DNA of 64,000 nucleotides from the NCBI GenBank assembly GCA_031213475.1, contig JARUPZ010000019.1, positions 767,001 through 831,000 of the forward strand, in the 5' to 3' direction. A program made the translations under genes and the position numbers. Positions 21,132 to 64,000 of the stretch are shown here, piece by piece. How positions within the stretch are numbered: position 1 is the stretch's first letter; every line of letters starts with the position of its first letter. This DNA comes from Nereocystis luetkeana. Its lineage: Eukaryota > Sar > Phaeophyceae > Laminariales > Laminariaceae. The notes under the pieces were generated by a model. That model worked only from the letters and a program-made list of their open reading frames with translations. It had not been told where the DNA came from and did no database searches.

Positions 21132-22054
21132 CTGTCAATCAAGTAGTAGAGTACGGCACGCACGGCAGGGTCGGTTCCTGCGACTGTTAGAGCCCGCCAG
21201 TACAGATTCACCGATGGAACTCGGCGAAGGCACCCTACCTCTCTCACCAATCTGCACTGCACGACACTAACTACATGCACCTATGTCAGAAAGTTAACTC
21301 ACGTTCTGTGACCGACGCCAGCAGGATGTCTTTCGCGCGTTGTCGAACACCAGAAACTCTCTCTCCTCTGGGGAGGCAAACGAAACCCAACGGCAAGGAG
21401 TTCCATTATACGGAAGCTTTACATATACGGAAATAGCGGGAAACGCACCCCGCGCAAGTTCCACCGCACAACAGACTGCTTACCAGCACTCGCTCGAGCG
21501 GAGAGTTAGGCCTTGATGGTGAGTGCCTCTGAAGCAGACATATTCAGCCTTGCAGTGCGCGCAATATAGTCTGTAGCGGAGGCCGCGGTTCCATATGACC
21601 AACAGCGTGCTGCAGGCGTAAGAGGAACTGCTGTGTGAGTGTTGTTTTCAGGTGCACTCATATCTCCTTTCTCTGCTGCTTGACAACGAAGTCTGATACC
21701 TGAACCGAGCTGCGACCTCGCATCACGGACACTTATCGAAGAAACTCATTGCGAGCCATCCAACCCACCACCTGCTGGCAGTTTTAATCTCGAGCTTCTT
21801 TCGTGTCAGCCTAGGAGGCGAACCTTTCATCGGAAACGAAGACGTTATCACTATCACTACTGTACGTGGAGACGACGAATCGGGATATATACACGTTTTT
21901 TTTGGTGGGTTTTGGTGGGTTTTCAGCTTTTGCACAGCAGATGCTGCACAGCAGAGTAGTAATCGTAGTACCAGGTACCAGGTACAGCAGTAGTTATAAT
22001 CCGCAATGCAGTTACCAGGTACCTGGTATTTGCTATTTGTAGGAAGCCAAGCCA
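21132..22054. other. Intergenic region, no gene recognised
   Basis: This is the upstream side of the RING gene and may hold its promoter. The first exact TACCAGGTA motifs of the window occur at 21969, 21976 and 22013, with TACCTGGTA at 22020. No other structure seen. Confidence 0.45.
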
Positions 22055-22745
22055 CCCAAGGCAACTCCTCAGGCTGCATCTTGATTACTCGTATGGGAAC
22101 CCGAAACCGGAAAACAAAACAGGATTTCCCTTCATCGTGTAGAAACCCCAGGGTAGTACCGTCGGTAGACAAGAGCCTTTTCCGATCACTCCCCAAACAT
22201 AAAAACCTGTGCTTTCAACACAGCACCTACCGCCGCCGATTCCTCGCCTCACAGGACACGAGGTGACGTCAAACCTTCAATGCCGTATGTATGCCCCCAC
22301 TGAAACCTTCAATGCCGTATGTATGCCCCCACTGCTCTGAGAGTGCTCGCTACCAAGTTTGAGGGTCGTGATGCTGTGTGGCCGGAGTTCTCGCTCTCGA
22401 GACGTAAGAGCCTGGCCCTTTTCTGGGCGTTTTTTTTCCAGACGGATCGCGTCTCGAGCGAGAACTCCGGCCACACACCATCAACGATCCTTAAACTTGG
22501 TAGCGAGCACTCTCAGAGCAGTGGAGCTTACAGCCTCGAAGGTTTGGTGTCACCTGTGAGGCGAGGGATCATCGGCGGTGGAAGGTGTTTGTGTTGAAAG
22601 CGCGGCTTTTTCCTGCTGCGGCATACCAAATAATACCCCCCATCCGCGGTGTGGGTTTCAACACCATGTAGGGGAAATCCTGTTCTGTTTTCCGGTCTCG
22701 GCTCCCATAAGAGTCAGCCTCAAGCACCAAGGCCCTCACTTGTGC
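22055..22745. mobile_element. Fold-back element with about 300-bp arms
   Basis: The inner arms match closely: ACTGCTCTGAGAGTGCTCGC and GGCCGGAGTTCTCGCTC on the left recur inverted on the right, with a short loop near 22420-22445. The outer arms (GACCGGAAAACAGAACAGGA on the right, a close relative on the left; CTCGCCTCACAGG near both) match less well. A 36-bp direct duplication (AAACCTTCAATGCCGTATG) interrupts the left arm at 22268-22335. No coding capacity. Confidence 0.75.
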
Positions 22746-22828
22746 CAGCATACATACAGCAGTAGTAGCATACATTGTTTTTCGCTAAAACGCAATTTGC
22801 TCCAAGCCTCTAAGTGTGGGAACTAGGG

Positions 22829-23690
22829 CTGTGAGTTGGCTGAATAATACAACGGTCGCCAGCTAGTTACTAGTTGGCTACGAGGTATAATAGTTAGTTG
22901 CGGCCGGGCCAACTATCCAACCATTTTTCACGTTTGGGTTTTTCCTTGCTTGTTGGAAGGCTTGTTTGGTACGGGGTGCGTAATTTCCCGGCATCTCCAA
23001 GTGGTACTACCACTAGCTAAATACCACACAGAGAGGTCTTCTGCAATTCATGGCGCATCAACCCATGGTAATCGACTATGTCTCTCTCGTTAGTATGTCC
23101 AGTGTCCAGTGGATGACGAGCACCTCTGACTCGGATGTTTGAGCGATGCTCGCCCTGAGTTGCGCACGTCTTTTCAGCGAAGACTATGAGGCCCCGAAAT
23201 GAAACCTCGTAAAGCACAGATTCGCTTTGTGTGTTACCATGGTAGTTGGTAACTCATCAAATACCACGGAGGGTATGACATGGTATTTGCTACGTAGCTC
23301 AATATGAACCGTTATTTAATCGCTTAATCGCCGGCGACGAATAATCTATTGTGTGTGCTCCTGTCGTAGAAGAGGTCCTCTCAGTGCAGTATGTTTTTTT
23401 TTTGTGTTGTTTCACTGGTCTGCTACTGCGTGCCGCACGGGTATTTACCGTTACAGACAAAATGTTAACACCAGCGAGAGACCCCCAAATGGGGACGGCA
23501 TGTCCATGTTTCTGGCGAATCCCTGTCAAGTCTTACACACTGAGGCGAAGTTAAAACTTGACCTTTCGAGATCAAAACTAAAGATTGAGCCTGGCCGGTT
23601 TATCATACGTTTTGAGTGCAAAACGTAACCAAATAGGGTCGCCAGCGAACAAACAACTAGGCGGGAACTCCACCCAATTCACAGCCCTAT
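22829..23690. mobile_element. TIR element, possibly hAT-like and non-autonomous
   Basis: The left end TAGGGCTGTGAGTTGG and the right end CCAATTCACAGCCCTA are inverted repeats with one mismatch in 16, and GGTCGCCAGC recurs near each end. The 8 bases before the left end (GTGGGAAC) resemble GTGAGAAC found just beyond a MITE-A that sits at the right boundary, which would fit an 8-bp target duplication. A few extra TA bases lie between, so this remains tentative. No transposase frame is visible. Confidence 0.5.
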
Positions 23691-23693
23691 ATA

Positions 23694-23807
23694 TTACGGG
23701 GGATCGTAGTAAATATGACCAACTATTGTTGGTAAAAATAAGGAAATATGTACCTGGTAGTTTTTTTTGTGTACCGTAAGTCCTATTTACTACGGTCCCT
23801 CGTAATA
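23694..23807. repeat. MITE-A copy 3, with a TACCTGGTA insertion
   Basis: Termini TTACGGGGGATCGTAGTAAA and its counterpart are intact. At 23751-23759 the copy reads TACCTGGTA where the family has TA before GGTTTTT. The copy lies at the right end of the 22829-23690 element. Confidence 0.9.
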
Positions 23808-26800
23808 GTGAGAACCGATCTGTCCAACTAAATACGAGTTACGAGTAAATGAAAACAGATTTTCATTCGATCGGCGGTTTCTCAGGCATTTAGTTAAATG
23901 ACTATCATACAAAAATAAAAGACAGTAGTCTGAAAATATATGACTCCGAATTTGGCAAACGTGTTCCGGAGCCTACACCGCAATATGCGGGCATTACAGC
24001 TTCTGGAATCCAAGTTGGTTTCGTCGAGAAAGGCCATGCCGAGTGAATCTCGTCTCGTACGTAGGTGTTTCGATACTAATGTCTATTCGAAACCATGCAA
24101 AGTGGATGACGCTGCTTCTCGGTGCGAAAATTCCTCGAGGCAAGGCGAAATGATCGATATATCCTCACCACTCACTACCCAAGGTGGTAATTGACCGCAG
24201 TTTAGGGGACGACGTGACCGCATGTGGGCAATCGCGTGCCGTAACGGCAAGTGACGGCTGAATACGGGGAAACGAAAAATATCCGCATATGGGCAACCGC
24301 GTGACGTAACGGCAAGTGACGGCTTAATACGGGGAAACGAAAAATATATCCCCTTCTTTTTTTTTTTCAGCCAGCCTTGCAATTAAATTGAAAACTGGGG
24401 TTTTTGTTTTTGTGGCTTGCCTGCTGCCAAGTGCCAAGCGTACATGGGCGGTTTGAGGGCAAGCCACAAAGATAGGGCGACGAAAGCGATACCTGTGCCG
24501 CCGCGGACGAGTGAACAGCAAGGGTGTGGTAACGGTAACTGGTGCCACTTGACGAATAGTTTCCGGAGAGATATGGGGGCTTTTCTTCGGCGGGGATAGG
24601 GGCTAGCGGTCACTTGACGTCAAAAACCGGTTGCATTTTGTTGCGTTGCCCACAGAAAAAAAAAACTCATTTTGGCCAATTGTACAATGAAAAAAAATGC
24701 CTGAAAGCACTTCTGCTGTACTTACGTTTTTTTCGTCGCCGATATTTCGTCATTCTGTTCTAGCTCAATTTTTTTCCATTGATCCAACATTTGGCATGGC
24801 AGATGTGGGCTCCTTGGTGCACTCCCGTGACGGTGGCAAAGCGGCGGCAGTTTCCGTGCCCTGCTTCCAGTCGGACCTCGTCGTTGAAGTTTGAAAATGG
24901 GCAAAAAATATTGTCCCATGCGTTCTAGTTTGATTGTCTTGTACTGGAGCCAATTATATTTTTGGCTGCTGTAGAAGATTATGTTCGTATCATACTCGTA
25001 CGTACCTGATTCCTTGGTAATTGTTTAGTAACAGTTTTTTATACTTCGTATGATATTTGGGTAGGTCTAAGCCCGGCAGCAGAAGCGTAGAACGTACTCC
25101 GTCGCTCTGCCGCTGCTCTTCAAGGATACAGTAGCTGCTGTATTAGCAAGGCCAGCACGTACCACCTGTCTGCATATGCATCGGGACAGAAAACGGAGTT
25201 ATTTAGCGTGTTTTGACTGTCGGCACGAGCGAGAGCAGGATAGCCGTTTTGTGCATGTGTTTGGTGTTTTTTCAGGCACCATTCTCAGGTCGACCGCGGC
25301 AGCCGGAGGTTCGATCCCTAATTTCGCAAGGCGGAAATGACATGACTGGCTGTATGCGAGCACACAGACGGAAATATGATCAAGTTCGTCGAGGTCTTCG
25401 AGTCGGACCTCGGCCGTGAAAATGGCCTAATGGGGCGACGGAAATGCCTCGATCGAAGCTGCCGTTTGCTTGAAGCTACGATGAACCGAATTCATCCAAG
25501 CCTAGGATGGCCAAGCGCCAACAAGCCACAGAACAGACTCTATCATGACTTGATTGAGTTCCTCTGAGCGTCCTGTGATATTTGGGGGCTTCAGTGGGCA
25601 GCACGGTGACCGTGAAGAGTTCCTCAAAAGGCCCTCTGTGGGGCTGATCTCTGCCAAACCTCGGTTTCTATAATATTCGCGTTTTTTATTTCACCTATAA
25701 AAACATTTTGTGGGCAATGCAACACAGGTGACGTGACCGACGAGACGTGGAGCCCGCGGTGACTGGGAGACGTCACACACCTTCTTTGCTCACCGCCGTC
25801 TAGTTCTCTGTCCGTCAAGAGTCAAGAGATAGAGCTTATTCATGATCCGCAAAACACAGTCAAGTTTTTACGATGAGAGACACAAAATCTCGATTTCCCG
25901 GCCCGGTTTGTCGTTTTTTATGTCTTGAATTTTGGCACGCGATTTATAAACGCTCTTGCCTAGGGATTACTTGGTGCCCACTTTGATTTTTTTACTTTTT
26001 TTTCGTTACATATCGGCGAAACGTCGGCCGGGGCTTTTCGAAAACATCAATTAGTCCACCGCATCCAAGAACAACCGTGATAAACTCAAGCCTCCATTTT
26101 ACACTGGAGAAACCCCGTCCCAAATTTCAGCACAAACTACGTACCGTAAAACGGGGCTGGGAAAACCGCGTCAAATATAGCGGGTCCTTTAGGCTAGACC
26201 AGCTCGTACAGCAGTATAGGACACCTAGTATGCGAGTGCGTATTAAGAAACAGGAAATCTAGCTCAGGATGGATTTCTTATTTGAGATTGGTTGCGGTCT
26301 GCGCTAGCTTCGTAGTAAAAGGAATCCTGAATTTACCGTTGTATTTCCATGAAAGTATCAGCCTGCCTCTTTTGTTGTTCGTTTTCTCATTATGTATCCT
26401 GTCCTGTACCAGGTATGATATATATATATATATATAGATATATAAAATATATAGATATATAGATATATCTACCTTAGTACCCAACACCTAACTCTCCCCC
26501 CCCCCACGCTTGAATGGGGGTTATCGCCTGAGGCTGTCAACCGCTCCAAATACGGTAGTGGGGTGCCCGATTTAAGATCTCCTCGGAACAGGACAGCGTT
26601 GGCCGCTCTTATCTACGAACCGCTTGTATGTCCGTGTAAGACCGGTTTGAGGCTATCCTGGGATGAGAGTTGAAAGCGAAACTCTTTCTTTCATCGGCAT
26701 ATATGTCCGCATGAAGAGCGCTAAAGCCCGCATTAAAGCGGGAGAAGTCAGGTGACAACCGTGATATTCAAGTTTCCGCGTCAAGCCGAATTTACCGCTC

Positions 26801-27471: not shown

Positions 27472-27663
27472 GCGTACCAGGTACGCGCCAGTCAGCACTT
27501 CTTCAGCTGTTGGAAGTCCGCCGCGGCAAACCAGTTTGAGGCTCGAGCCATCCCATCTCTCGCGCCCGCCATATACGAAGAGAGCGGTGTCCTGATGGGA
27601 GTTCTCCGCGGGCTGCCCGCTTGTGTGTCCTGTTCTGCCGTGTGCTGCCGTGCTTTGCCGAAG

Positions 27664-30358
27664 GCTGTCGGCAGCGATAAGCTCGTGGGCACAGGACTGC
27701 TGCTGGCGAGCGTCACAATCTTCGTGTACTACACGCTTTGGGTCATTGTTCTGGTGAGCGAGCGCTTTTTTTTTTCGCCTTTCCCGCTGCCGCTACTGAC
27801 TGTTTGCCGTGTGCTCCTGCCCTTGCCCTTGCCTTGCCATTGCCCTCGCCCCTGCCCTCGCGAACAAAATGGCCACTCAGCCTCGTGAGCTATATATACA
27901 TACCACCGACAGCAATAGCAGGGTACCTGGTACTACGAAATACAAGCACCATTTACACACTTGTATGAAAACGAAAGGGCCCTCACATTGCCGACCAGAG
28001 CGGTATCTGGTAGTGCAGTGTTACAGAGTTAGTATTGTGCATGCGGCTGCTCGAACAAAGGTAATTCGAGTGAAGGGCGTAAGGACCGTCCGTGAATTAA
28101 TACGTACCAGGTATGGAACCCCCCCCCCCCAACAAAAAATCCTTAGATTTCCAGGCACAGAGGTATATGCTGACCGCTGCTCTTCGAGAAACAAGGCGAA
28201 CTATACACCTGTTTATGTATCCGCGGTAAAAGTTTGTGCAGCTCCAAGTTTCGGCTGCGGTTTCCCCAAACGTCCTACAGGAGGCGTTGCGTAGCTTGGC
28301 ACCTGCTTTGAAGAGGAGTTGGAAGCAGGGTTACATAGCCGACACGATATCATCGATCGGCTCCCATAAGCCGGGGGCAGAGGTCCTCGATCGTCGAGGT
28401 TGCGTCGATCGGCGTGGCTGGTGCTACTCGAAGCGCGTGCTGTGTTATTCAAGTAGGGTTGGGGCGCTGGGTGACTCGAGGCAGTAGCGATTATACTGTC
28501 GTCAACATCAATCGGTATGTCGGATCGCGGCGGTACACTGTCTCTCATCTCTCCTCTCTCCTCCCGAAACGCATTCAGTGGAGTTCCGAACTATACGACG
28601 GCGTGTTTCTTGGGCGTACGTTCGATAAAAACTACTGGTGAATATACTGACCAGGTCAATCAGTAGATTACTACTGCCAGTACATACTGCTGGGCCAGTA
28701 CCGAGCCCTAGTGTTGACCCTTGTGTGGCATGATTTTTTTGTTCAAGGATAACGACCTAAACATCGAGGAGTGCGGTAGGAAGCGTGTGCAACAGTTCAA
28801 CAGTACACACACCGGACAGGCAGATGAGATGGATCATATCCCCACTTCATTGTCTAGATAATTTCAAGGGAAGACAATATTCCTGGTCTGCGTAATAACG
28901 GAAGGTTGGATAAGGATCTAAAACAAATGTACCGCAGGGTGTGATCTACATCAGACGTGTGCAAACAAACGGCACACACATACGTGGCCATGTCTCGCGC
29001 GCGCGGTATGTACGGCTCCTTACGCCGGAATTCGAACGCGATACACCCTGCCCCCATTTGCAGCTCGGGTTGCGTGGGGCCGCTGATGCTGTACTACGAC
29101 CAAGTAATTTAGTGATCGTCGCCACTATAGGCGTACGTGCTTCGCAGCACTTTTGTGGCCTTTTTGTTTTGTCGCTGGGCCTGATGGGATGGAGCTACCT
29201 CTATACTTGAGGACCTACTACAGTAGCAGCACCCAACAAGGCATGACCCTTATAAGGCATCAAGGCATGCCTTATCGTTTTGTTAGAGCAGTAGTTTTCG
29301 ATGTTTTGACGTAGCGTAGAGGCACACGCTACGATATGGGTGCACCTAGTGTAAATATTTTCCATGGCTCCTCATTCGAAAGAGCTCAATGCATCACCCA
29401 CAACAGCTCGGAAGAAAAGCGTACGCCCAGGCCGACGAGCGATGCCATGGCCTACGAGGCCTACAACAATTGAAAAAAAAAAAAAAAAAAAAAACGATGC
29501 GTGTGTAGTGGTAAGGTCAGCCGAGTATAGCCCCACCAGCCGGAAAAAAAAAATGGCCAAGAAGTGCCGCCCCTAATGTACCACGCGTCCCTGGGCCAAT
29601 GGGATTGCTCGTCGGTTTTAACCCTTTTAAGACGGCAGTCCCATCTTTGGGACCAAACCACTCAAATTCTAAGTAGTTTGTCCCCAAAACGGGACTGCGG
29701 TTCTGAACATGGGTCAAGGGTACCTTTTTTCTGGAAGGCGTTTTTTTGTTGGGTGGTATATAGAGCTCTTCCAAGTGAAGAGCCTCAGGAAAGTTGCACG
29801 TGTACCCCCCCCCTGCCGTAGTAGATGGCGAGCGTCTACTCTACTCTAGAAACTATAGAGTTTCGATATTGTTTTTTATTCGCTGAAGCCCCTTCCAAGG
29901 GGAAAACATATAACATACTGACACCGATAAATTGGTGGCTTCGTTTGTCACTCAGCACCGCTTTGCCTTCCCCCGACCCCTCCCGTGTCGTTCGTTTCCG
30001 ACGCGTGTGTGTACGTATGCACCGTGCGTGCTTGTGTGCTTGCTTGCTTGCCTGCGTGGTTGCTTGCGTGCCTGCTTGTGTGCTTGCTTGCGTGCTTGCT
30101 TGCGTGCTTGCTTGCGTGCTTGCTTGTGTGCTTGCTTGTGTGCTTGCTTGCTTGCTTGCTTGTGTCTGCGCCCTTGCGCCCGGTTCATCACAGCCGTTTG
30201 TGGACACGTCGCATCCGGTGCAAGACTTCTTCCTGCCGAGGAAGTACGCGATCGCGATCCCGACGGTGCTCGTGATCATCGTGGTGGCGCTCGTGGTGTC
30301 CTTCGTCGGTCTCACCGTCACGAAGTCCGCTCGAAAGCCGAAGCAGAAGTCGTCGTGA
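27664..30358 (+). CDS. DPM2: Dolichol-phosphate mannosyltransferase subunit 2
   Basis: Two recognised exons, 27664-27753 and 30194-30358, join in phase 0 (GTTCTG|GTGAGC to ATCACAG|CCG). DPM2 is a two-helix ER membrane protein that stabilises the dolichol-phosphate-mannose synthase complex, supplying mannose for N-glycans and GPI anchors. The first helix is GLLLASVTIFVYYTLWVIVL. After the junction come PFVDTSHPVQDFFLPRKYA, where DFFLPR matches the family KYFLPR, then the second helix around AIPTVLVIIVVALVVSFVGL and a basic tail. From the Ala at 27664 to the stop there are 84 residues; the human protein has 84 in all. The 5' boundary is not settled. The frame is open upstream to an ATG at 27595, but position 27664 follows a pyrimidine-rich tract ending in AG, so the start codon may be on an upstream exon. 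The 2.4-kb intron holds a MITE-B and a TGCT-rich minisatellite. Confidence 0.9.
29618..29719. repeat. MITE-B copy 3, in the DPM2 intron
   Basis: The left part is TTAACCCTTTTAAGACGGCA and the right part is TTTGTCCCCAAAACGGGACT followed by GCGGTTCTGA. The TTAA is clear on the left and degraded on the right. Confidence 0.85.
30027..30172 (+). repeat. TGCT/TGCG minisatellite next to the DPM2 splice acceptor
   Basis: About 145 bp of GCTTGCTTGCGT-type repeats, with GTGTGCTTGCTT variants, ends about 20 bp before the acceptor at 30193. It is open in all three plus-strand frames (Cys/Leu/Ala/Val repeats) but belongs to the intron. Confidence 0.9.
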
Positions 30359-31565: not shown

Positions 31566-31645
31566 ATTACGGGGGACCATATTAAAGACCAGGTAGGACC
31601 TACGGTGAATACAATAATCTATATATTTCCCTAGTTTTATTATTA

Positions 31646-31750: not shown

Positions 31751-31786
31751 TAACAATATTTGGTCCTATTTACTACCTGGTACCAG

Positions 31787-32985: not shown

Positions 32986-33871
32986 TGGCTCCGCACCTCG
33001 CAAGCGACTTCTAGGTCGCCGTGCCTCGCCAGTGATTTCTCCTCTCTTTTGTGCGCAACACGAAAAAAAAAAACTCCATCAAGGTACCTCTCTCGGTTCT
33101 GGTTTCTTTGGACATACACAACATGTGGTATTAACGCGTCGCGGGGGGGGGACTTTAGGGTTCGAGAGACTTTGTTTTTCGATGATCAAGATGGCCGGAG
33201 ACTGCCGTCCCCCCGCCCCCAAATGCTAAAGCGTGCACCAGGTACCCTGATGTACCAGGTGAATAAGTATGTATGTATGATATGTACCTTTTCGTATGCC
33301 ACTCGATCATGATTTGAGCTTCTGGTATTTACTGCGATATTGATAGTCCACGTGGATGCGGAGACAAAGATGTTGCTCCCGAGATGAAATACTAAGATTT
33401 CCATCTGTTGGTAAAACTGTTCCGAACACTTGCACACGATTCTTCTGCGCGTTTTCACATTGAGCCCCCCTATATGGGCCGTGGGCCGCCCCACGGCTCC
33501 TTTTCGTCACGTTCACGCACGCACGCTGATTGATGATGATTTATGATGATTGATGGTGCATGATCATCATCATACGTACGTATATACTACTGTGCCCGCT
33601 CGGGTGTAGGAGAGGGGGAGACGATAGACGAGGTCCACGCCTGCCTTCCTGCGGGAAATATACGGCACCAAGTACAAGTACGTACGGAGGTGGAATGAAT
33701 TACGTTTTGGCTCTCGGGAATGTTGTGTGATGTGCTTCTTGTTGAATCCACTCTCCACCCACGGCCATACAGCAGCAGTACCAGGTAAATACGTGAATAC
33801 CTTCTGTCGGTGTTCGCGCGCTCTCGTACACGGTTTATCATACCTGGCATTATATGTACCACTACAGCAGT
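32986..33871. other. Intergenic region, no gene recognised
   Basis: A low-complexity TGATGATTGATG tract is present at 33527-33575. Scattered TACCAGG motifs occur (exact TACCAGGTA at 33779). No gene. Confidence 0.5.
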
Positions 33872-34003
33872 ATTACGGGGGACCATAGCAAATACCTGGT
33901 AGGACCTATACACGGTAGTATGCACAAAAACCTATTCGTACCTGGTATATTTTACTATTTTTACTAACGATATGTGGTTCTATTTACTATGGTCCTCCCC
34001 GTA
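33872..34003. repeat. MITE-A copy 7, with two TACCTGGTA insertions
   Basis: The copy is longer than the family norm because it carries TACCTGGTA at 33893-33901 (in place of TA before GGACC) and again at 33939-33947 (in place of TA before TATTTT). The termini TTACGGGGGACCATAG and its counterpart are present. ACTACAGCAGTA lies directly before it. Confidence 0.9.
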
Positions 34004-35616
34004 CAGTAGATACGTTTTTTTGTTAACATTCCATCTCCTTCCGGTGCGTCAGCGTGCTCGCGCTGTTCGCGACGACCATAGGGAAACATGGACGACGAGG
34101 TAACTCGCACGGCGACGAGCGACTTGTTTTGAAATTTGGTACCAAGGTATGATTTCTCACATACCTGGTGTGCGTATCCGGCTTGGTCTGAACACACAGC
34201 GAAAGTGCAGAGTTAAAACTTTTGGAGCGCAGAAGAATCGAACTGCGAATGTTTCGCGGGTGTATCAATCCTTGACGAGTGGCTGCCAAGGTGTTATTTT
34301 TTACGTATTTACGACGTCGTATATAGTACCAGGTACCTGGTAGTATTTAATATTCATGAGTAGACTTGTACTTTTTTAGCCGAGCACCGGTACCAGATGC
34401 CATTCTGGCCTGAAATATAATCCCGTTTGGTGACTGATGTGAAGATCAAACGCATCTTATATTGAAGGCCATATCGATACGTACGGTAGACGGTACAGAG
34501 GTATGTACATACGTTCGAAGAGGGGGGGTGCATTTTTTTTTCCCTGATGTGGGTTCCAAAGGTAACATGGGGGAGCCATCTTCGTGTGATGTGTTTAGAT
34601 GACACGACTACATCATCACCGATAAGTATTGTACGCACAGCCGAACGAACAATCCACACACCGTCTGAGAGATCACGGACTACTTGCCTTTTAAAGGCGG
34701 GTAGACGAGATCGGAATTCCTAAACGGAGATAGGATCGGGAAACGAGAAGTTCTTACACTGATTGCCGGAAGAACGATCGGTAGGCAGAGGAAAATTCTA
34801 CAGGAGGAGGAGTACATCAGACACGAGGACTTTAGGAGAGTTTGTGGCGGGGGTTGGGACGAGTATATCTCGGTGTCGATTTCCCCCCCCCCCCTACTTC
34901 TCACTTTTCTACCAGAGCACCTCCTTTAACTCTCGCCGTAACAAAGAAGCTATTAATATTAACCAGAAGAAGCGAAGCGCTGCTTGCTTCCCAGCTGCCA
35001 GATGCATATACACCTGCGTCCCTTACCCTTACCTCGGCGCCACCATTTCACACTACTACTAATACTACTGCTGTGTGTAGACCATCTAGATATGGATCAA
35101 AGATGTCAGGAGACATGTCACGCAAAAACAAAAACGTGCGCTGTCAAGGGTGTATGGCCGACCGCTTCACACTACAACCCACTGCATGTTCGTAGCAGTT
35201 TGGTATCGGTCAAGGCGTGTCAAGGCAAAGTTGCTGTCTGTCGGGGGGTGAAAGTGCTGCCTCCAGACATCTTATGCTATAGATCCTATAGCCCACTATT
35301 ATTATGACATGGCGTGCAAGATCATCTGTGTATCACAGACCCAGCCAACGGGAAACACGCCCTTCGATAACGCATGCATGCGGAATGTACGGCTCCCACC
35401 CGAAATGGTGAGTGAGCGATATCATGCATACAACATCAGAAAACCTATCTATCTGCGCACGGAAAGATCTAGATACATATGATGGAGTGGAAATCGATGA
35501 CCTGCCCGATGTATCGAACAATGCCATGGCACTTCGTACAAAAACTTTTTCCGGGTACTTCGTTCGAGGAGTCCCCGCCAGGTAGAACATTGTGGGCCAA
35601 CTAAAAATACCTTGTG
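34004..35616. other. Intergenic region, no gene recognised
   Basis: An adjacent double motif TACCAGGTACCTGGTA lies at 34327-34342. Stretch 35380-35530 has AGATCTAG and CTATCTATC words of the AGATC-rich family. No conserved coding sequence. Confidence 0.5.
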
Positions 35617-35816: not shown

Positions 35817-35828
35817 GGTAGTACAACT

Positions 35829-35943
35829 TTTACGGGGGACCATAGTAAATAGGACCAAATATTGTTAGTAAAAATAGGTAAATATATACCAGGTAGGTTT
35901 TTGTGCATACCATAGGTCCTATTAACTATGGTCCCCCGTAATA
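35829..35943. repeat. MITE-A copy 8, with a TACCAGGTA insertion
   Basis: Complete termini are present. At 35887-35895 it reads TACCAGGTA where other copies read TA before GGTTTTTGTG, an exact gain of CCAGG plus one TA. Confidence 0.92.
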
Positions 35944-35978
35944 CGGTCGTGCATGATATCGAGTACCCCCCCCCCCCG
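35943..35978 (+). repeat. R1 element, very short 3' fragment with poly(C)
   Basis: ACGGTCGTGCATGATATCGAGTAC followed by about 13 C: only the last ~24 bp of R1. It abuts MITE-A copy 8. Confidence 0.6.
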
Positions 35979-38900
35979 ATGGCTCTCGGGCCGCCGACGG
36001 AAGAAAATAATAAGTAAGTGAAGCCCGAACGGGTAAAGCATCGTCGCGCCCACGTCCGCACGGTGTGTGTTCTCCGTTTCAATTTGCTTGCAGGACAGGC
36101 AGGACAGGGCATGATGCTTTCATGCTTGTAAAAAAACAGCAGTAACGCTTGTTACATGTATGCGCCGTAATTCTTGCCGGGATGCCGAAAAGTAGGGCCG
36201 TTACACTCAAATTCGACATGTTGGGCAAACAAAAAAAAAACATCCCGAGTATACCTGGTATGCTACTAATCCAGGCTCTGCTGAGATGAGTTCGTTTTTC
36301 GTTGCTCAGACTTATTAAAGGGGCGGCAAGATGAACCTTTTTCGCGAGAGAGGAGAGGCGAAAGAGGCCGCGCAGCGAACGCACCCCGCCCGACCGTCGG
36401 TGCGCTCGACTATCCTCTGCTTTCTTGTCGCCGGGAGGAGGGAGCTTGAGCTAGCGCGCGCGCTCGCTCGACCGACTATAATTAAATCTGTTTGTTTTGT
36501 CTCCGGCAAGCTTGTTAAGCTTCGGACGCGCTCGGCTAATCGTCCGGTCTGTCGCTAAGAAGTTCTTAAGCTCTCAGCACGGGTGGGCGGGCGATCTTCT
36601 GTCGTGTCGCCGCGTAAGAAGTTTAGAAGCTTCGAAAACACGAGCGAGTGGGCCCGCATCTTCCGGAAGAACCCATCGAACAGTCTCCTGCGGCCGAAAT
36701 CAAGAAAAAAAATCAACACCCACACACGGCGTAACGCCAGAAGACGCCACGGGGGGCGAGGCCGGCGAAACGAGGCGATCGGCGACCGACCATCATTCCG
36801 CAAGCACGACGATCAAGTAAATCCGTGGACAGACGAAATGATCAATCGATCAAGCAAATCCGTGGAAGAACAAAAAAAATCGATGTTTCGGTGTACACAG
36901 TAAGTAGTGGTACATAAATAATTAACATGCACCGGGCGGAATCTTGCCTGCCCCAGCGGAGCTACAGTCGGAGCTGCCACCGAACGGGGTGGCGTTTCTC
37001 TATGCGGGGCGAAGGCACCCGTAGCAGGCGTGACTCAAGGGGGAGGGGGGGGGGGGGGGGGGGGGGGAGGCTCGAGTGTTTTTACGAAAACAAAATACCG
37101 AAAGTACATATCTCTGCATCAACGTACGAAATAAACACTACAAGATTCACACGATCCACTCGGCGCTCTGAGAGCGAGCGAGCGATGCGAAAATCACCGC
37201 TGCGCCTCACGAAATTTCTCGCAGCACGCAGGTTGTTAGGGGCGGGTCGACAGAAACATCCAGAAGAGAAGAGAGAAGAGAAGAGAAAAAAAAAAAAAAA
37301 AAGAGAAGAGAGAAGAGAAAAAAAAAAAAAAAAAGAGAAGAGAGAAGAGAAAAAAAAAAAAAAAAAGAGAAGAGAGAAGAGAAAAAAAAAAAAACGGGCA
37401 GGGGCTGCTCAAGCCCCTGCCGCGCTCGTCCTTATCCGGCGCCGCCCTCGCACGCAACACTAACAAGGAGAAACATCACGAGACTCGACAAGTAACACCG
37501 ACCTGCAGTACGGAAAGCGGAGCATTTCGCACCCCGACGTTCATCGTAATCGTATAATGGATTGGCCCCGACCCCATCTTTCTTTTCTGACAACCCATTC
37601 GAATGTCATGATGCTACATTTGTAACGGTGTCAGCGAAGAACGCCCGAGGCCTCCGAAACCGAAATTACCAAAAACCAGGAAACAGAAAATATACTTCTG
37701 AAAGAAAAAAAAAACGCCTAGGACGATACGCTAAATATTGCGTCCTCTCCACTTTCTGTGCAAAGGAAAAAAAAAAGAAGGAACGCAGAGTAGTTAAGTC
37801 GGCTATTGCCGCGGGTATTTCTTATATCGTGACAAGAGCGCCGACGACATCGTTCTTCCTTGCCCAAGCCTTCAGCAAAAACATCGGCGCACACCCCAAC
37901 ACCCACTTCCCCTCTCTCCCTCTCCACTCAAAAGCTAAGATAACAATTCAACACGGTATCCCATTCATAACATGCGCGGTTCAAACGCACCCCCCTTACA
38001 ACCATAAACATTCTTGTGCAAACACGCCCCCCCCCCCCCCCCTCCCCTCCCTCCCCTCCCTCCCTCCCCTCCCTCCCTCCCCCCCAACCTCCCTCCCTCC
38101 CTCCCTCCCCCCCCCATGTATCGGTCCCACCAAAGCAACGCCGACAATTCACGATCCCAACCGGCAAGTTCAACTCACACCGCGGGCCAATCAGACGGCA
38201 CTTCATTCCCGCCAGCCATCGATCGACATGATCTCCACCCACTCAACCCATACTCGGAAAACTAAAGGTTGTTTTCCTTAAGGGGGTGGGATGGTTGTGG
38301 TGGTGGTAGTTGGTCGTGGCAATGTCGGTGGCGGCGGCGGTGCCCCGCGTTCGTACATCCATGTGCGGAGATGGAAGCGGTGTGCATCGACGCGACGAAG
38401 TAGGAATATAGCGCCCCGAGCTCCCGGAAAAAAATAAAAAATAAAAAAATCCCCCCGCATACAAACATCTCCGAGATAGATGGAACGGCAGCACATGTGT
38501 AGAAACGGAAAGAATCCCCACACCCGAAAAATAAACCACAAAAAAGACGCACACAACTTGTTCCGTCGTTGTAGTCAGCCTCAGGTTATGGGCTCATCAC
38601 AGCAAAGAAAAGGTCATTTCTTTGCAGTCGTATCCATACCATAGTCTATAGGCAGCAGCTATCACATTCAAAAACACGAGCCTCACTTTCTTGTCTCGGC
38701 TCAGACACCATACCCAGACGAGCCTCACTCCGCTTTCGGCTCCGTCCCCTCCTCGAGTTATGTATTCCCTCCTCCTCTGCCTCTCTCTCTCTCTCTCCCT
38801 CCCCCCTCCCTCTCTCCGTCTTCTGCGATCGACATCACCGTTTCCGTCTTCCTGGGCCATCGCCCCCCCCCCCCCCCCCGCCTCCCGCCTTCGTCCTCCA

Positions 38901-46400: not shown

Positions 46401-47767
46401 AAAAGGGCTGAACGTGCTCCCATGGGTCCAACCAAAGCCATTCCATGGTATTTTTTGTACTATGAACAAGGATTAAGTATGGATAGTACCCTGGTTATTA
46501 TCACGCAGTTATTGTGTTTATTGGTCACCAGATGACAAAAAATATCATTATTGCGAGCTGCAGTCGGGGGGGGGGGGGAGGGGGGGAAGGAAGATGGTTG
46601 GAACCCCTGCATACCTGCGCGCCTAGGGGCTCGAGATGGTTAACCGTTAACAACCGGGGCATGAACGGTGACCAGGCAGCTTGGCAGCCGGAAGGAACCG
46701 AGAGGCTGACACGACGCGCAGAATCTGACGGAGCTTTTCACCTTCGCCACGTCTGTTCAGAATACATTTTGAAGACTGGGAACAACAACAACGTGGAATC
46801 TGGCTCGGCTCCTCAGCTCGGCTTTTGCTACTTTTAGGCTTTCCCCTTTTCTGTCCTTTTCGGCTTCGCTGTGCTTTATTTGGTACGTATGCCTGTTGTT
46901 GCTTGTTTGTGCTGTTGGATTGCATAGCTTTCAGCCTGCCACTGCTATATCTATGACTCTGTTGTATGTCGTGCGAGTATATGGATGGGCTACTGACTGC
47001 GGTAACTGAGTAACAGGAACGAGGAGGGAAGAAGAACGATGTTGATATGTATGTACGATACGAGGAGAAGTTTGTGTACCAGGTACAGCAGTATCAATAG
47101 TATACGTACCTGGTACCTGGTATGTAACTTCTCGTTCGTAGAGAGTGTAGTTCGTAGTTTTGTTTCTGCGCATGAAGAAAAAAATAGTCGTAATCGTATT
47201 TACAGCAAAGTCTTCATCCGTCGGAAAAGAAAGGTCCACGGGGGTGCAGCGGAGCCCCGCCTGGTCAACTCGGGAGCAAGGCTCACTGACAGCCACCCGC
47301 GGTCAGCCGGTCGCCGTAGACTGCGTTGCACCGGAAAAGGAACGCCTTGCAGCAAGCGCAGACCGGACAAGAGTTTTTTTGCCCGGTTTTTTCTCCTTCT
47401 GCTACTATGCCGGAACGTATAATGCACGATGGAAGAGCCATAACCATAGCGTATCTGTCTTTATCTCTCGCGGCGTCTTGGATTTTTTCGTGTTTTTCGT
47501 TCAGTTCGGACGCAAGGCATCCAAAGAGGGGGTAGGGCTCTTTGCCGGCTGAAACCTGCCGTGCCCAACGAACGCTCCTCGTCGTGTGCGTGTGCGCCTA
47601 GTACATGCTATAGGCATCTGATCAGAGCAACGAAAGAAGAGCTATAGAGCAGGGCACAGCACATAGCGTACCTTCGTGCGCGTCTTGATCTGCACCCCGT
47701 CTTGATCCTTCCACGAGGCAGTTCTGCGACTACCTTGGTGCTTCACCAGGATGTGCGACGCCCGCAT
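39215..47767 (-). CDS. PIN1: Pin1-type parvulin peptidyl-prolyl cis-trans isomerase
   Basis: Three exons on the minus strand: 47767-47672, 45847-45701 and 39310-39215. All junctions are phase 0 (ACGAAG|GTACGC to CCCGCAG|TCG; ATGAAG|GTGCGG to ACGGCAG|CCC), giving 112 residues. The enzyme isomerises phospho-Ser/Thr-Pro bonds. Exon 1 gives RASHILVKHQGSRR, with the active-site His (H5) and the phosphate-binding Lys/Arg cluster (K9, R14, R15). Exon 2 gives EIAQEHSDCGSARSGGDLG with the active-site Cys (C62). Exon 3 gives PFEDATRSL and VVDTDSGVHIILRTG with the second His (H106). There is no WW domain in the recognised exons and the length is close to the plant single-domain Pin1 (119 residues). The ATG at 47767 is directly before RASHIL; the frame is open a little upstream, so a slightly longer start is possible. 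Introns of 1.8 and 6.4 kb are full of repeats. Confidence 0.93.
39420..39480. repeat. GTAG/GCAG microsatellite in PIN1 intron 2
   Basis: GGTAGGTAGGTATG followed by GGCAGGCAGACAGG-type repeats, about 60 bp. Confidence 0.85.
40330..40541. repeat. Minisatellite with palindromic CACACGGGTGAT units, PIN1 intron 2
   Basis: About seven diverged units of roughly 27-32 bp centre on ATCACACGGGTGATAAGATG. Each unit is partly self-complementary (ATCAC and GTGAT). The segment right after it (40558-40670) resembles 18290-18400 in the RING-gene intron (TCTCGACGAGACG, then CCATT and ATTTTCG). Confidence 0.8.
40888..41001. repeat. MITE-A copy 9, with a TACCTGGTA insertion
   Basis: Complete termini (TTACGGGGGACCATAGATAA and counterpart). 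TACCTGGTA at 40938-40946 replaces a TA of the family sequence. Confidence 0.92.
41753..42096 (+). repeat. SINE family 2, copy 1, poly(A) tail
   Basis: The tRNA-like head has an A-box-like TGGTTCAAGTGG and a perfect T-arm CTGGG-TTCGAGC-CCCAG. The body has ATTCGATG, GTCGACGAG and AAGGCACGTACCG, and the tail is about 22 A. It is nearly identical to 43103-43466. The head does not form a tRNA acceptor stem, so this is not a tRNA gene. It lies in PIN1 intron 2. Confidence 0.88.
42293..42515. repeat. Fragments of the fold-back family next to 42565
   Basis: 42293-42345 resembles the right arm (GTGTGTTCTCCACATTAAAC). 42410-42515 resembles the left arm (TATGTGACCGCAGAATC, CTCTCTAGAATAGGGAATCA, GGGTAGAAAGGGC). 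Confidence 0.6.
42565..42910. mobile_element. Fold-back element with about 150-bp arms, PIN1 intron 2
   Basis: The left arm reads TTGTGACCACAGAGCTTG, AAGAATCGGCACGGACACTG and GACGGGTAGAAAGAACAG. The right arm carries the complements in reverse order (CTGTTCTTTC-like, CCCGTCGACATCCAGCAC, CAGTGTCCGTGCCGATTCTT, CTGTGGTCACAAAG). The loop at about 42720-42755 holds ACCAGG and a (GT)n tract. Related pieces lie at 5-65, 4150-4220 and 42293-42515. Confidence 0.75.
43103..43466 (+). repeat. SINE family 2, copy 2, long poly(A) tail
   Basis: It differs from the copy at 41753 at only a few positions (T-arm GAGCCCTAGG instead of GAGCCCCAGG). The tail is about 40 A. The near identity of the two copies indicates recent retroposition. 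It lies in PIN1 intron 2. Confidence 0.88.
43645..43741. repeat. MITE-B copy 4
   Basis: TTAACCCTTTTAGGACCGCA on the left and CAGCCCTAAAGGGGTTAA on the right, both with TTAA. It shares its right TTAA with the next copy. Confidence 0.9.
43738..43835. repeat. MITE-B copy 5, tandem with copy 4
   Basis: It starts in the TTAA that ends copy 4 and ends with its own TTAA at 43832-43835. The inner arm on the left is altered (CACTCCCATATGTGGGGACA). Confidence 0.9.
44147..44243. repeat. MITE-B copy 6, most intact
   Basis: TTAACCCCTTTAGAACCGCA on the left and CGGTTCTAAAAGGGTTAA on the right; near-perfect hairpin with TTAA at both ends. Confidence 0.93.
44747..44855. repeat. MITE-A copy 10
   Basis: Complete termini (TATTACGGGGGACCATAGTA and counterpart). 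No CCWGG insertion in this copy. Confidence 0.92.
45979..46055 (-). mobile_element. LINE 3' end, 5'-truncated copy, PIN1 intron 1
   Basis: Read on the minus strand, the last ~75 bp of the LINE (GATGCGTGGTCAATGG, GACTACGGCAAGCAAC, AAATGAGTAC) run into a long C-run (a G-run on the plus strand at 45954-45978). It matches the 3' end of the long LINE copy at 9645-9720. The C-run is the direct view of this LINE's tail. Confidence 0.85.
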
Positions 47768-49794
47768 GATGATGATGACGATGGTGTTTGTTGTCTCCAG
47801 AAGGTCAAAAGTACAACGGACTGGCTGGCTGGACGAATAAGAGACAGCGATCCAAACCGAGCAGCGGCAGCAGCAGCAGCAGCGAAAACCGGGGAGGTCG
47901 AAAGAGGCGCGACGCTGAAAAGCTTGGTATAGGGCAGAGGTTGAACGCGGGACCCCGGGCAGAGCGAAATATCACCGACTACGATGGGGGGAGGAGCTGC
48001 AGACCAGACGGTAGGGGGAACAAATCACAAAACTAATCAACCATCCCACATCTGAATCCCACAGTTTTTTCTCCGGGTTTGCCTCGGCATGATCGTGGAA
48101 ACCCCCGGGTTCGATTTGATTGTAGAATATCGTCATGTTTCTTGTTTTTTTGGGTCTTTTTGTTTGTTTTCAAGTCATTTCTTCTGCAATTTCACATTTT
48201 CACAGATCTCATCAGATCTCGGTCCCAATCCTACTGCTGTACGGCGACTGGGCAGGGGTTTCAGAGGGTAGCTTTCGCAGTCGGTTCTCTAGCGTCGCCT
48301 GGCAACTGCCATAAGCTCACGGCTTATAGCGCTGAGGTGGAAGGTGGAGGGTGGAAGGTTTGCCGGCAGGGGGACCGCGGTCGAAAATCAATTTTTTGGT
48401 GAACATCAAGATGATCCTTCGACCGAGGAAAAGGCGGTGTGACACAAGCAGAAGCACCGAGCATGCTCCAGCTCCCCACCCCGTGCATGGACAAGATCCG
48501 GGGGTGCTGCCTTCAGGTGAGAGGCATGTCTTTGACCTCTTGCGGTTCTCGAGCACTCAACCCTTCGCGTTCGGTTAGGTCTTATTGCGTCGAGCTAACC
48601 TGCTCAAACTCAAATTCTCAAGTTTTGAAACATGTACCAGGTACACAACGACAACAGCAGCAACACCAACAGCCTGCAGCAGCAAGCAGGAGCATTGATA
48701 GTAGCCGCGATGCGCAATACTACGTACCTGGTATAGCGTACATATCGCACGTCGCGCTAGAACGCACACAGAGTAACAAGATCATATCATTTATCACCCT
48801 CGCGCGTACATCAGATCAACCGGCGACTTGGACTCGACACACATACCGGAATGTCGGAATGCGGTACGTACGAAGGAGTAGTCAAAGGAGCGGAGCCTGT
48901 AGGGCAGTAAATAATACCAGGTGGTACATCAAACAGCCAAAAAACAGCAAGAAACTGCTGTACCTGACACCCAGAGGTGCAAAGTGCAAAGGAATCGTCG
49001 TGCGCAGTACAGGAATACGGCAGCAGTTACATACGTACGTACCCTGTACGATGTACCACATCTGGGCGGGATTAAAGGAACGTTTTATATATAAATATAA
49101 ATGACCAACGTTGCTTATATTTTCGATCAGATCGGTAGCCGGTACTGCTGTCTGTCACAGATCGTCGACAAATAGATCCATACAGATCCATATCCGTATC
49201 TTGAAGAGTGTGTAAAACCCGGTACGAACGATATCTATCTGCAGATAGATCTACAGCTGTGCTGTACCAAGTGCGTATGTATGTACATGGTACGTAGCTG
49301 TTACGCTGCTGCACACACACACTGATATATACCAGGTACTGCTGTACATAGTAGACCAGTACGTATGTACTTCGTAGTTTTTCGACTCGGGAGATACCTG
49401 CTGCAGCTGCTGTGTACTCCCAAGTCTAAAACTGTACGAGTGCACTGCGAAGTACCAGGTATGCTGTAGCCGGATACATAATATCCAGAGAGCAGTGATG
49501 AAGATGATGTTGATATCACATTATTAATAGCTCATTTCCCTGAAATCCTGCCTGTGGTCACACACAGTATGTTACACCATGTGCTTCAGAGGGTCCTTGG
49601 TATAATGAGAGTTTGTAATTTCCAGGGCTGCTCGCGGGTCAGGTCAAACCTCACGTTTTTTTGTTGTTTTTTTATCCTCCGGCGGATTGGTAAAAATCAA
49701 GCTTAAGCTCACCACACTTCCACGTAACCGTGTCGTGTGTCAATTTAACCTATAGCTCCCGTTGCAACCTCAGCATAAGCTGCTGTTACTACTG
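47768..49794. other. Intergenic region upstream of PIN1
   Basis: No conserved coding sequence seen. Exact TACCWGGTA motifs at 48635, 48725, 49330 and 49453. AGATC-rich repeat at about 49120-49260 (GATAGATCTACAGC, ATAGATCCATACAG). The PIN1 promoter should lie at the left end but is not recognisable. Confidence 0.5.
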
Positions 49795-52838: not shown

Positions 52839-53207
52839 GGGGCACTCGAGAGGCGGTGGTTCATGATGCACTTCTTAGGGTATTCCAGGTATGTCGTTTG
52901 ATGTTGCGCAGTACATACCGGTATCTGCGACTGACGTACCTGGTACATGAGACAATTGTGGTGTGGTTTGGTGTATGGTTTGGTGTGTGGCGTGTGGTGT
53001 GGTGTGGCGTGATGTCGTGAGGTGTGGGTGGTGCGCGGCAATGGGCTACGAACAATACTACAGAGTGTAGAGCTCCTCTGTTAGGAGGGTCATGGCCCAT
53101 ATAGGTGCGCGGTGTGCAGCGAAGGCAGCTTTCCGCGGGGACTTCGGCGAAGCAAGGCAGAACAGTTTTTGCGGGCGTAGTGACTTTCGTACCGAGCGTA
53201 ACACACT

Positions 53208-57024: not shown

Positions 57025-57260
57025 CCTCACCCTTCATGCGACTCGCCGGACACCTCACGGCGCTTTGCGCTCGGTGCAAGCAATGTATGCCTGGTCGGTG
57101 AAACCCGACATGGTCCGTCCTGGCGTTGTAGGGATGCGAGGGCCTATGGTCGTACGACTACGGCCATACATGAAATCCAGTACCTGGTACATATCTCCTA
57201 TCGGGTACCCCCCCCCCCCCCCCCCGCCCCCCCCCCCCCCCCCCCCCCCCTCCCCCCCCA
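57025..57260 (+). repeat. R1 element, 5'-truncated copy with TACCTGGTA insertion and long C tail
   Basis: From TCACCCTTCATGCGACTCGC through GGGATGCGAGGGCC to TATCGGGTAC, then about 50 nearly pure C. At 57181-57189 it reads TACCTGGTA where the copy at 32435 has a single TA before CATCTCTCC. Confidence 0.82.
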
Positions 57261-58366: not shown

Positions 58367-58379
58367 GATTTACTACCAC

Positions 58380-61552: not shown

Positions 61553-61700
61553 GGTTACTCACTTTTTGCTTGCCTTAGTCCTTTGACCATCGACCACGCA
61601 TCCCCTTCGAGACGGAGCACCGTTAGTACTCCTAGTAGAGGTAGAGTAGAGACGCCTCCAAACATTTCGGGGCGCTTTCATTTGGGGCATTGGGGGGGGT
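61553..61700 (-). mobile_element. LINE 3' end, second 5'-truncated copy
   Basis: Matches the LINE 3' end at 9645-9745 over about 150 bp when read on the minus strand (GGTGCTCCGTCTCGAAGG, GATGCGTGGTCGATGG, AAGGCAAGCAAAAAGTGAGT) and is followed by a C-rich tail. Confidence 0.85.
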
Positions 61701-62699
61701 GGGTTGACTCTGTACCCAAAGCTTGACGCAGGCTTGGGTTAGCCCGTGGGTGCGACCGCTTGCGCGGGCGCATTGATACGGAGGCTGTTGCGCAGCAGCC
61801 ATCGCACAGCAGCAGCAGCAGCTGTGGTATCGAGGAGCGGCCTGACGGGCTGGCTGTTGTAAGGATGCGGGACGGCGGCGATCGTCGGCGGTGAAGGAAA
61901 AGCCGTGCCGGAGGCGTTCAACGCCGCAGGCGCGAGAGATGGCAACGGGGCGGGGTCTCGGTTAGGCGCGAGGTGCAGTGACGAGCCCTTTTTTTCACCA
62001 CGCCCCGCCTCAATGACATGACAGAGGCTGCTACTTCTACATACAAGCCGGGGGGGGGTGTACGTGGCAGTGCGGGCTCCCCCGTGGTGGGCGCGAGAGA
62101 TGCAGCGAGCCCCTCTTTGTGACCGCGCGGCGTGCTGCCGTCGCATGCATGACGAGAGGTGCTATATGAATAGCATACGCACAAGCCAGGATCGGAGGCG
62201 CACGTTAGCGTTTCGTTCCTGGCGACTGGTTCTCTCGAGAGGAAACTTGACCCGCTCGCTGCCTGCATGACAGAGGGAGAGAAAGGCTCGTGGCCTGACT
62301 GTCCGGGGTATGGACTCAGGCATGGAGGCCGCGGGTTGGCCCCTTGACTGACCGCTTTGACGAGGGTTGAGTGCTGGCACAACCAGTATGTACTGACCGT
62401 AGCGATCTACTGGCAGTAGCAGTCTTCCCAGGTTGGTCAGGCCAGTATGTTCGCCAGTATTTTTTGTCGTACGTACGCCCAAGAAGCACGCCATATTATA
62501 GTACGGAGTCCCAGCAATTACGTTTCGGGAGGAGATCGGAGAAGGGGAGGGGCAGTATACTGCTGCGATCCAGTATACTGATTGTTTTTGACGACAATAT
62601 AATCGCTACTGATTGAGTCAGCCAGTGTCCAGCCCGAGCTTAGACTGACCGCCCCTACTCTATGATTACTGCTTCTAAGTATAATAGTCGTTTGGCCGT
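61701..62699. other. GC-rich stretch, possible but unproven coding
   Basis: A minus-strand frame from 62146 to 61739 is Ala/Pro-rich and of exon-like GC, ending in a run with TTAAAAAVRWLLRN. No family is recognised and the opposite strand is also open, so no gene is called. Confidence 0.35.
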
Positions 62700-63190
62700 T
62701 ATTATCGGAGAGCCAGAATTTCTATATGTGTGAAATAATTAACGATTTTCCATTTTTTTGTGAAATTATTTCCAAATTTTGCGAAATTTAACAGAGGACG
62801 AAATATCCGGAAAGTCAAATTTCGTAAGCGTTGAAAATTATTCCACTTTTTTTTAAATGCTCTCCGATACATTTAAAAAAAAATGCTCTTTGACACGTAT
62901 AATGGCCCTAGTTTCCATATTTTTGTGAAATAATTTCCAAAATATGTGAAATTTAACTGAGGACGAGATACCAGGAAAGCTAAATTTCACAAGAGTTGGA
63001 ATTTACTTATCAAAATTTGAAAAAAATTGCCCTCCGATAATATTGGTCCTCATTTCCATTTTTTGGGGAAATAATTAGCAAAATATGTGAAATTGAACAG
63101 GGGACGGACTATCAGGAGAGCTAAAATTTCACAAATGTTGGAAACTATTTAACAAAATTTGGGGAAAAACTGCTCTCTAAAAATCCCGGC
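62700..63190. repeat. A/T-rich tandem array, three units of about 150-160 bp
   Basis: Three diverged units contain GTGAAATAATTTCCAAAATA, TGTGAAATTTAAC, GAGGACGA, GGAAAGCTAAATTTCACAA and CTCTCCGAT. Units begin near 62740, 62910 and 63050. Confidence 0.82.
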
Positions 63191-64000
63191 CCTAGATATT
63201 AATATGCAAGCGGTTCCTTTATTTCGGGACGGAGTTGGTAGTATAGTAAGGCCCGAAGGGACCTTGATGCCGCCCCCCCCAAACAATTCGTTTGTATTCT
63301 GGAATTAATATATACGCACCACGATGATGCCCCTAGATATGAGGAAGCTTTCAATTAAATATTACACACCTCGGACAGACCATCTACAGATTATCTACAG
63401 GTCATTACCACTTGATGATCTACGTAGATACTTTATAAGGGCAGATAGATCTATCTATTCCCGATCTTGAATGACCTAGCTCATGCTGCTGGGTGGGTCC
63501 CGCATAATCCGCACAATCTAGCGCGTGCTTCCTTGGTTGAATCTGTACTATATACAGATCGTGCACAACCTCTCACAGCTGCAGGTAGATGAGGAACTGT
63601 AGATGATCTATCTGTTGATAGATAGATACTAGATACATCATTATCTGTCATAGGTGTGAAATATCAATATTCGTATACAAACGGTGTGGTTTTAATTTTT
63701 TTTAATTTTTTCGGGACAGAGTGACAGCGTTTCCTGGAGTCAGGTGACAGCGTTTCCTGGAGTCAGGTGGGACACGCCTCCTGAAAAAGGCTCATTCCTC
63801 ACCTTCGTTAATATATCAATAGTATCGTTTTCTTGTAGAGGGAATGCACGACAGGCCACCCTTGTCGCGTGTGGTACGCACCAGGTACCAGGTACCTGGC
63901 AGGCATTTCTTGGGCATGGGTGGGAGGTAGAGACCGCGTCCGGCGGGAGACGGGAGACGGGGGCCTGTTAACTCTCTTAGTGCTCGAAGTGTAATGAGAT
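63191..64000. other. Right flank, AGATC-rich repeat and small duplication
   Basis: AGATC-rich repeat at about 63375-63640 (CAGATAGATCTATCTATC, GTAGATGATCTATCTG). A 24-bp direct duplication at 63722-63768 (GACAGCGTTTCCTGGAGTCA twice). No gene. Confidence 0.5.

Follow-up and report, generated by a model that had tools for sequence, protein, structure and literature searches.

Transposons that target the dinucleotide TA leave terminal bases of the element between two TAs, and the footprint bases of Sleeping Beauty are its own termini. Minos leaves the terminal bases CGAG, a footprint longer than 3 nucleotides (nt), and the ends of Mos1 begin with CCAGG. Such excision footprints have usually been studied singly in the laboratory. 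For Sleeping Beauty, an excerpt from one study gives the consensus footprints TACAGTA/TACTGTA (PMC4378557), while an excerpt from another places the 5′ breaks of mariner within the element, at a depth of two or three nucleotides (PMC2642840). Here, the 9-bp word TACCWGGTA (referred to as the token where the copy is exact) was investigated in a 64,000-nt stretch of the Nereocystis luetkeana genome (C19:767001-831000, contig JARUPZ010000019.1), hereafter the window. A first-pass annotation of the window had read this word as a TA-targeted micro-insertion, probably the excision footprint of an element with CC...GG ends. This proposal is supported by the gain of the word in repeats, by a symmetric target and by a CCAGGG product, and the parent element is one that we infer. 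With a probability of roughly 0.7, each token is the excision footprint of a TA-target cut-and-paste transposon bearing CCAGGG-type ends.

Abundance of the Token and Its Gain in Repeats

The window contains exactly 32 tokens between 21969 and 63894 and none in positions 1-21968, in agreement with the approximately 32 exact copies counted earlier from 21,969 on. The chance expectation of about 0.5 copies given at that time is likewise borne out by 100 dinucleotide shuffles of the window, which yielded a mean of 0.45 tokens and a maximum of 2. In the genome searched (465,085,209 bases in 1,987 contigs), TACCWGGTA occurs 182,395 times against 1,744 for the reversed word, which served as the genome-wide control. 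This excess of approximately 105-fold, on which the first-pass annotation had made its proposal depend, corresponds to about one exact copy per 2.5 kb, and the shuffles together with the reversed-word control rule out a chance origin.

Copies of the repeat MITE-A align with single 7-bp gains at TA. An all-against-all indel comparison, in which the token was not used as query, was run over the window, 20 stretches of 10 kb and a few small loci (hereafter the gap method). Counted by independent sites, the 7-bp CCWGGTA outnumbered every other indel of more than 4 bp, with four sites in other sampled loci and six in the window (23751, 31589 (decayed), 33893, 35887, 40938, and 57181). Five of these 10 gains rest on one or two comparison copies (one at 31589, one or two at each of the four outside sites); polarity is strongest at 35887, 40938, 23751, 57181, and 33893, where many copies lack the token. 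When gained and empty sites are compared, the insert is flanked by a duplicated TA, as in the excision footprint of a TA-target element. TACCWGGTA is therefore gained, not lost: repeat alignment, named earlier as the means of telling a gained from an ancestral word, returned gains, as did the unsupervised indel list. The first-pass annotation had also placed gains at 33939, which aligns with an extra TTCG, and at 31774, which the gap method did not recover. The tokens of the window are as follows.

21969..21984, token doublet TACCAGGTACCAGGTA, then CAGCAG-TA
22013..22028, inverted token doublet TACCAGGTACCTGGTA
23751..23759, gained token within the MITE-A copy at 23691-23810; alignment and gap method
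26407..26415, token
27475..27483, token
27924..27932, token
28105..28113, token
31589..31595, decayed token (GACCAGGTA) within the incomplete MITE-A copy at 31562-31641; one comparison copy supports the gain
31774..31782, token whose polarity the gap method did not recover
33779..33787, token directly 3′ of TA-CAGCAGCAG
33893..33901, gained token at the left hotspot TA in the MITE-A copy at 33867-34004; alignment and gap method
33939..33947, token in the same MITE-A copy (33867-34004), adjoining the extra TTCG step; MITE-A alignment
34327..34342, inverted token doublet TACCAGGTACCTGGTA
35887..35895, gained token within the MITE-A copy at 35825-35947; alignment and gap method
36252..36260, token
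40938..40946, gained token within the MITE-A copy at 40882-41005; alignment and gap method
41625..41633, token
43087..43095, token
43967..43975, token
44041..44049, token
47077..47085, token, then CAGCAG-TA
47107..47122, direct token doublet TACCTGGTACCTGGTA
48635..48643, token
48725..48733, token
49330..49338, token, then CTGCTG-TA
49453..49461, token
52937..52945, token
57181..57189, token gained in repeat R1; gap method
63886..63894, token

The left MITE-A hotspot has 997 matches genome-wide against 2 for the control, with TA next in 908 of them and, by eye, in 96 of the first 100 places listed. Forty of these first 100 were fetched (30 A-type and 10 T-type, not a random choice) together with the three remaining non-TA places, the other 57 being scored by the following TA alone. 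The 40 comprise 39 TA-CCWGG-TA and one TA-CCAGGG-TA, and the three non-TA places a decayed token, a second TA-CCAGGG-TA and an apparent short deletion. Behind TA-CCWGG-TA, exact TAGGACC comes next in 22 of the 39 places and after a second token in one; in the remaining 16, judged by eye, diverged MITE-A follows, at L054 and L084 after a few extra bases. T-type hotspots carry CCTGG more often than CCAGG (51 vs 15), whereas A-type hotspots are nearly even (18 vs 16). The T-type bias implies that one token-bearing T-type MITE-A copy probably multiplied, so that hotspot hits are not all independent.

One MITE-A site differs between the genome and contig JALZWD010000061.1 (L046; GTDB metagenome-assembled genome (MAG) Flavimaricola g3_MAG_00016), with TACCTGGTA against TACCTGGTACTGGTA, which may reflect a second visit or a 6-bp duplication. 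This contig is 98.6% identical to the kelp genome over 3.7 kb; judged from this sequence it is probably host kelp DNA misbinned into a bacterial MAG, and we infer that the kelp is bull kelp. An excerpt from PMC9238374 describes 79 MAGs from kelp blades with g3_MAG naming; Nereocystis luetkeana is mentioned there, and the share of kelp DNA in metagenomes of whole tissue is reported as 39.0 to 49.8%.

Target Preference

Target choice was examined in a flank sample of 106 runs of 309 kb (212 flanks, 115 tokens). Of the 212 flanks, 63 have another TA at a distance of exactly 7 bp outward from the token TA (background 7.5%, p = 1e-21), and 174 have a purine directly before the token TA (background 60%, p = 1e-11); TA at -4 is also raised (34 vs 14.9, 86 runs). 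The two sides of W are used about equally (43 to 38 over the 115 tokens), and the integration-site preference is symmetric and centred on TA. Insertion thus prefers RTAY with another TA 7 bp away. Decayed neighbouring tokens were considered as the origin of the TA at -7 and rejected, the 52 intervening 5-mers being about as unlike CCWGG as generic TA-N5-TA words.

Across 27 blocks, token density follows the density of TA-N5-TA (Spearman 0.74, a value inflated by the tokens being TA-N5-TA themselves) more closely than that of TA (Spearman 0.54). Words of the form TA-N5-TA number 62 in the first 21,968 bp of the window and 220, tokens included, in the rest; the token-free part of the window is thus also the poorer in targets. 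This correlation, obtained with tokens counted among TA-N5-TA, also bears on whether the word is a conserved functional site under selection, for example a protein-binding palindrome. Such a role would suit the near-palindromic form and the strong genome-wide excess of the word, but is hard to reconcile with stepwise 7-bp gains within repeats, with a density that tracks the target and with the excess of decayed variants described below; we regard it as highly improbable.

MITE-A itself was rejected as the source. In 42 MITE-A insertion flanks, TA at -7 was found once (3.1 expected), with TA at -3 instead, and its ends (TTAC/GTAA) are the wrong ones; the first-pass annotation had argued against MITE-A from these ends, and the flanks lacking the -7 preference lead to the same conclusion.

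The Six-Base Product and Candidate Parent Elements

The longer word TACCWGGGTA occurs 13,000 times genome-wide against 771 for its control. The 100 places listed, which come from one section of contig C1, comprise 93 CCAGGG and 7 CCTGGG (p = 3e-20), or 86 and 7 without seven satellite copies. Since slippage in a G-run would extend both W forms alike, the phasing of the sixth base with A suggests a longer source sequence that begins 5′-CCAGGG and has the token as its apparent tip. The satellite copies lie at G000:C1:1305185-1308353, where TACCAGGGTA recurs every 528 bp, seven times, in an apparent tandem satellite bearing the 6-bp variant.

A search of the sampled sequence for TACCWGG ends without a following TA gave 43 inverted pairs. 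The best of these, L032:6568-9378, spans 2,811 bp with TA on both sides and ends TACCAGGGTC. Its end sequences are TACCAGGGTCAAGTGGACGATGGAACCTGT and TACCAGGGTCGACGAGACGATAATACTTGT, with 15 of the 23 bases behind TACCAGG equal, a similarity matched by 16 of 2000 shuffles (p about 0.008); a scan for TA-bounded inverted repeats with at most two mismatches in 14 misses this candidate. One of its reading frames has a sub-threshold DUF7682 match (E 0.0092). A third candidate end, L029:7206, has CCAGGG + GGAACCTGTA in common with L032. Both candidate elements are leads.

Doublets and Decay

Doublets in which two tokens have a TA in common number 15,917 genome-wide against 2 for the control, where approximately 1,150 would be expected if second hits struck TAs at the average rate, taken from the flank sample. 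The token is itself TA-N5-TA with G before TA, so second hits beside the first are expected, and its match in shape to the preferred target helps explain the 15,917. The doublets noted earlier at 21969, 22013, 34327, and 47107 were all found again. The 59 plus-strand doublets among 100 matches listed comprise 40 direct, 14 AT, and 5 TA, i.e. 19 inverted. Tandem duplication cannot make the inverted ones, while the excess of direct doublets suggests that some arose in this way; a share of the doublets probably reflects tandem duplication and not a second insertion.

Whether tandem duplication, or carriage inside larger repeats, could have spread the tokens as a whole is a separate matter. The 40 direct doublets of 59 (among matches listed), the T-type hotspot bias of 51 to 15 from one multiplied MITE-A copy, the 528-bp satellite carrying TACCAGGGTA, and the 6-bp CTGGTA difference between the two kelp sequences, which can be a duplication, are all of the kind that this process would leave. 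However, it explains a share only, as the 32 window sites, by eye, largely have unrelated flanks outside MITE-A, 19 of the 59 listed doublets are inverted, and the A-type hotspot shows no such bias (18 to 16); as a general explanation it is quite unlikely. Nine doublet matches in IMG/VR were rejected, as they look like chance with 2-3 tokens per locus, and an IMG/VR search with one MITE-A word plus one MITE-B word gave no match.

Decay of the word appears limited. Counts of the inner C-to-T variant (TACCWAGTA) lie 5,362 above the control, an excess equal to 2.9% of exact tokens for the two sites together and about 1.5% for each; for the outer variant (TACCWGATA) the excess is 15,149, or 8.3%. 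The outer excess may reflect a second product, CCWGA, or context-dependent mutation; some TACCWGATA words occur in direct tandem pairs. One-mismatch variants are relatively commoner in smaller samples (an excess of about 65 vs 94 exact tokens), and core substitutions numbered 71 (30.8 expected) beside 115 exact tokens. The low decay and the many young tokens imply recent activity, and the source is probably young and still active.

Proposed Mechanism and Its Difficulties

In the proposed mechanism, a transposon with terminal inverted repeats starting 5′-CCAGGG would insert at TA and duplicate it. Upon excision, the transposase would make staggered cuts, one at the end of the element and the second, on the opposite strand, 5 nt further in, leaving each flank with a 3′ overhang TA-CCAGG. 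These quasi-palindromic overhangs could anneal through CC:GG around one A:A mismatch and then be ligated. As CCAGG overhangs carry this mismatch centrally, its repair to A or T would give CCAGG or CCTGG and hence TA-CCWGG-TA, while cutting or filling one base deeper would yield the minor TA-CCAGGG-TA. The footprint, being TA-N5-TA, would attract further hits and produce doublets in both relative orientations, which are the orientations observed; other doublets would arise via tandem duplication.

Several results weigh against this mechanism. The outer C-to-T variants are 2.8 times the inner ones, which simple decay does not predict, and the proposed 5-nt stagger exceeds the distance of two or three nt that the mariner excerpt gives. 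No second copy of L032:6568-9378 was found among the sampled loci, a Pfam scan covering 7 of the 16 frames that reach 70 aa showed no transposase, and no convincing partner end for L029:7206 lies in the next 7.5 kb. Nor did any of the 43 hotspot places fetched from the first 100 listed hold a longer element. This last result would suit a parentless nano-insertion, in which a recombinase or a nuclease/ligase recognising TA-N5-TA adds the 7-bp CCWGGTA at TA and so copies its own site. The preferred target has the spacing of the token, as this process would have it, and product length is equal in 96 of the first 100 hotspot places listed. On the other hand, the CCAGGG product (93 to 7 in the places listed) suggests source sequence past the fifth base, and a candidate element with CCAGGG ends exists. 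Such a process is improbable in our estimation, yet it is the alternative to which we give most weight.

Transposase profile searches, run in six frames without introns and with the best candidates only being scored, also count against the excision origin, in that no transposase of the families searched could be tied to the token through CCAGGG-type ends. DDE_3 (PF13358, Tc1/mariner) gave 0 matches with 30 candidates scored and a control positive in 3 of 14 genomes. Genes that are split or have diverged, such as those of PlantMar type, could escape this search, which used no PlantMar-specific model. PlantMar is described in an excerpt from PMC7325037 as a TA-target family with stramenopile hosts. 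Transposase_1 (PF01359, mariner) also gave 0 matches, an uninformative outcome because its control was positive nowhere. DDE_1 (pogo group) matched 28 times, and CCWGG inverted ends were absent within approximately 1.5 kb on either side at the four best-scoring of the 28 loci.

DDE_Tnp_4 (PIF/Harbinger) matched 57 times, with about ten copies scoring nearly alike. Two of these copies (L044, G000:C10:1009500-1018500, and L045) are 99.1% identical throughout the 9 kb read and appear to belong to a young repeat longer than 9 kb, which we take to be Harbinger-type. On the stretch read it was set aside as a source, as both tokens present are common to the two 9-kb copies and none differs; the ends of the repeat lie beyond that stretch.

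That the searches run found no transposase would also be expected of some other templated repair process at TA breaks. The fixed sequence, the symmetric target and the phase-locked sixth base point instead to transposon ends, and such repair seems to us a little less probable still than the nano-insertion. A tentative wider picture, which we hold at somewhat less than even odds, is that of a kelp transposon, active to this day and excised with such efficiency that it is far outnumbered by its own footprints, whose scars recreate its preferred target and so attract scars, and whose transposase lies outside the TA-target Pfam models tested.

Other Features of the Window and Samples

Other TA-bounded words are also in excess over 264 kb, namely CAGCAG/CTGCTG (31 vs 2.4) and CGAG/CTCG (46 vs 11.4), with window examples at 21983, 33768, 47084, and 49337 and also at 4429, 5109, and 18594. 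The (CAG)n words directly adjoin tokens at four window places. Footprints left by further TA-target elements could account for these words, as could trinucleotide repeats.

An M20 peptidase frame at 1658-3025 has brown-algal proteins as its best named-source matches, the top identity among the named matches listed being to Laminaria digitata (94% over 65%). Two frames at 11404-12982 on the minus strand, without a Pfam match, look by eye like pieces of a non-LTR (long terminal repeat) retrotransposon, and at 54742-56765 diverged 42-bp units, some in each orientation, form a long array. Elsewhere in the genome, G000:C384:5001-12000 and G000:C3:3738753-3745752 are identical over 7 kb, as an assembly duplicate or a perfect repeat, and this pair offers no token difference to compare.

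Significance and Comparison with Known Systems

Among the titles and abstracts of the matches listed, which cover the literature in part, no genome-wide footprint record in brown algae is described. A footprint recognisable anywhere in a genome makes the turnover of a cut-and-paste element countable, as sites visited and left. If the excision origin is true, this genome keeps an unusually readable record of past transposon positions, and a 7-bp scar that reinforces itself may have shaped it. It would then be possible to test how many visits were made for each copy now present, which targets are preferred (with well over 100,000 natural events to draw on), and how a brown alga repairs mismatched overhangs. 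The tokens also offer strain or species markers and are a source of 7-bp indels.

The token resembles the footprint of Sleeping Beauty, a member of the Tc1 family, in that TA is followed by terminal bases and a second TA, with a quasi-palindromic overhang, a central W and both W forms. It differs in having five bases (CCWGG) instead of three (CWG), in being natural and inherited, with about 182,000 copies in one genome, and in the lack of a DDE_3 match there. Mariner (Mos1) has the TA target and the terminal bases between two TAs in common with the token, while Transposase_1 gave 0 matches in kelp with an uninformative control. Minos is similar in that more than 3 nt of terminal sequence stay between the TAs, although these are CGAG and not CCWGG. 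Within the same genome, MITE-A is like the presumed source in being an apparent TA-target element that sits in TA (TA/TTAC...GTAA/TA), but its ends are TTAC/GTAA and its flanks show TA at -3 in place of -7; MITE-A is where the process strikes, not where it originates.

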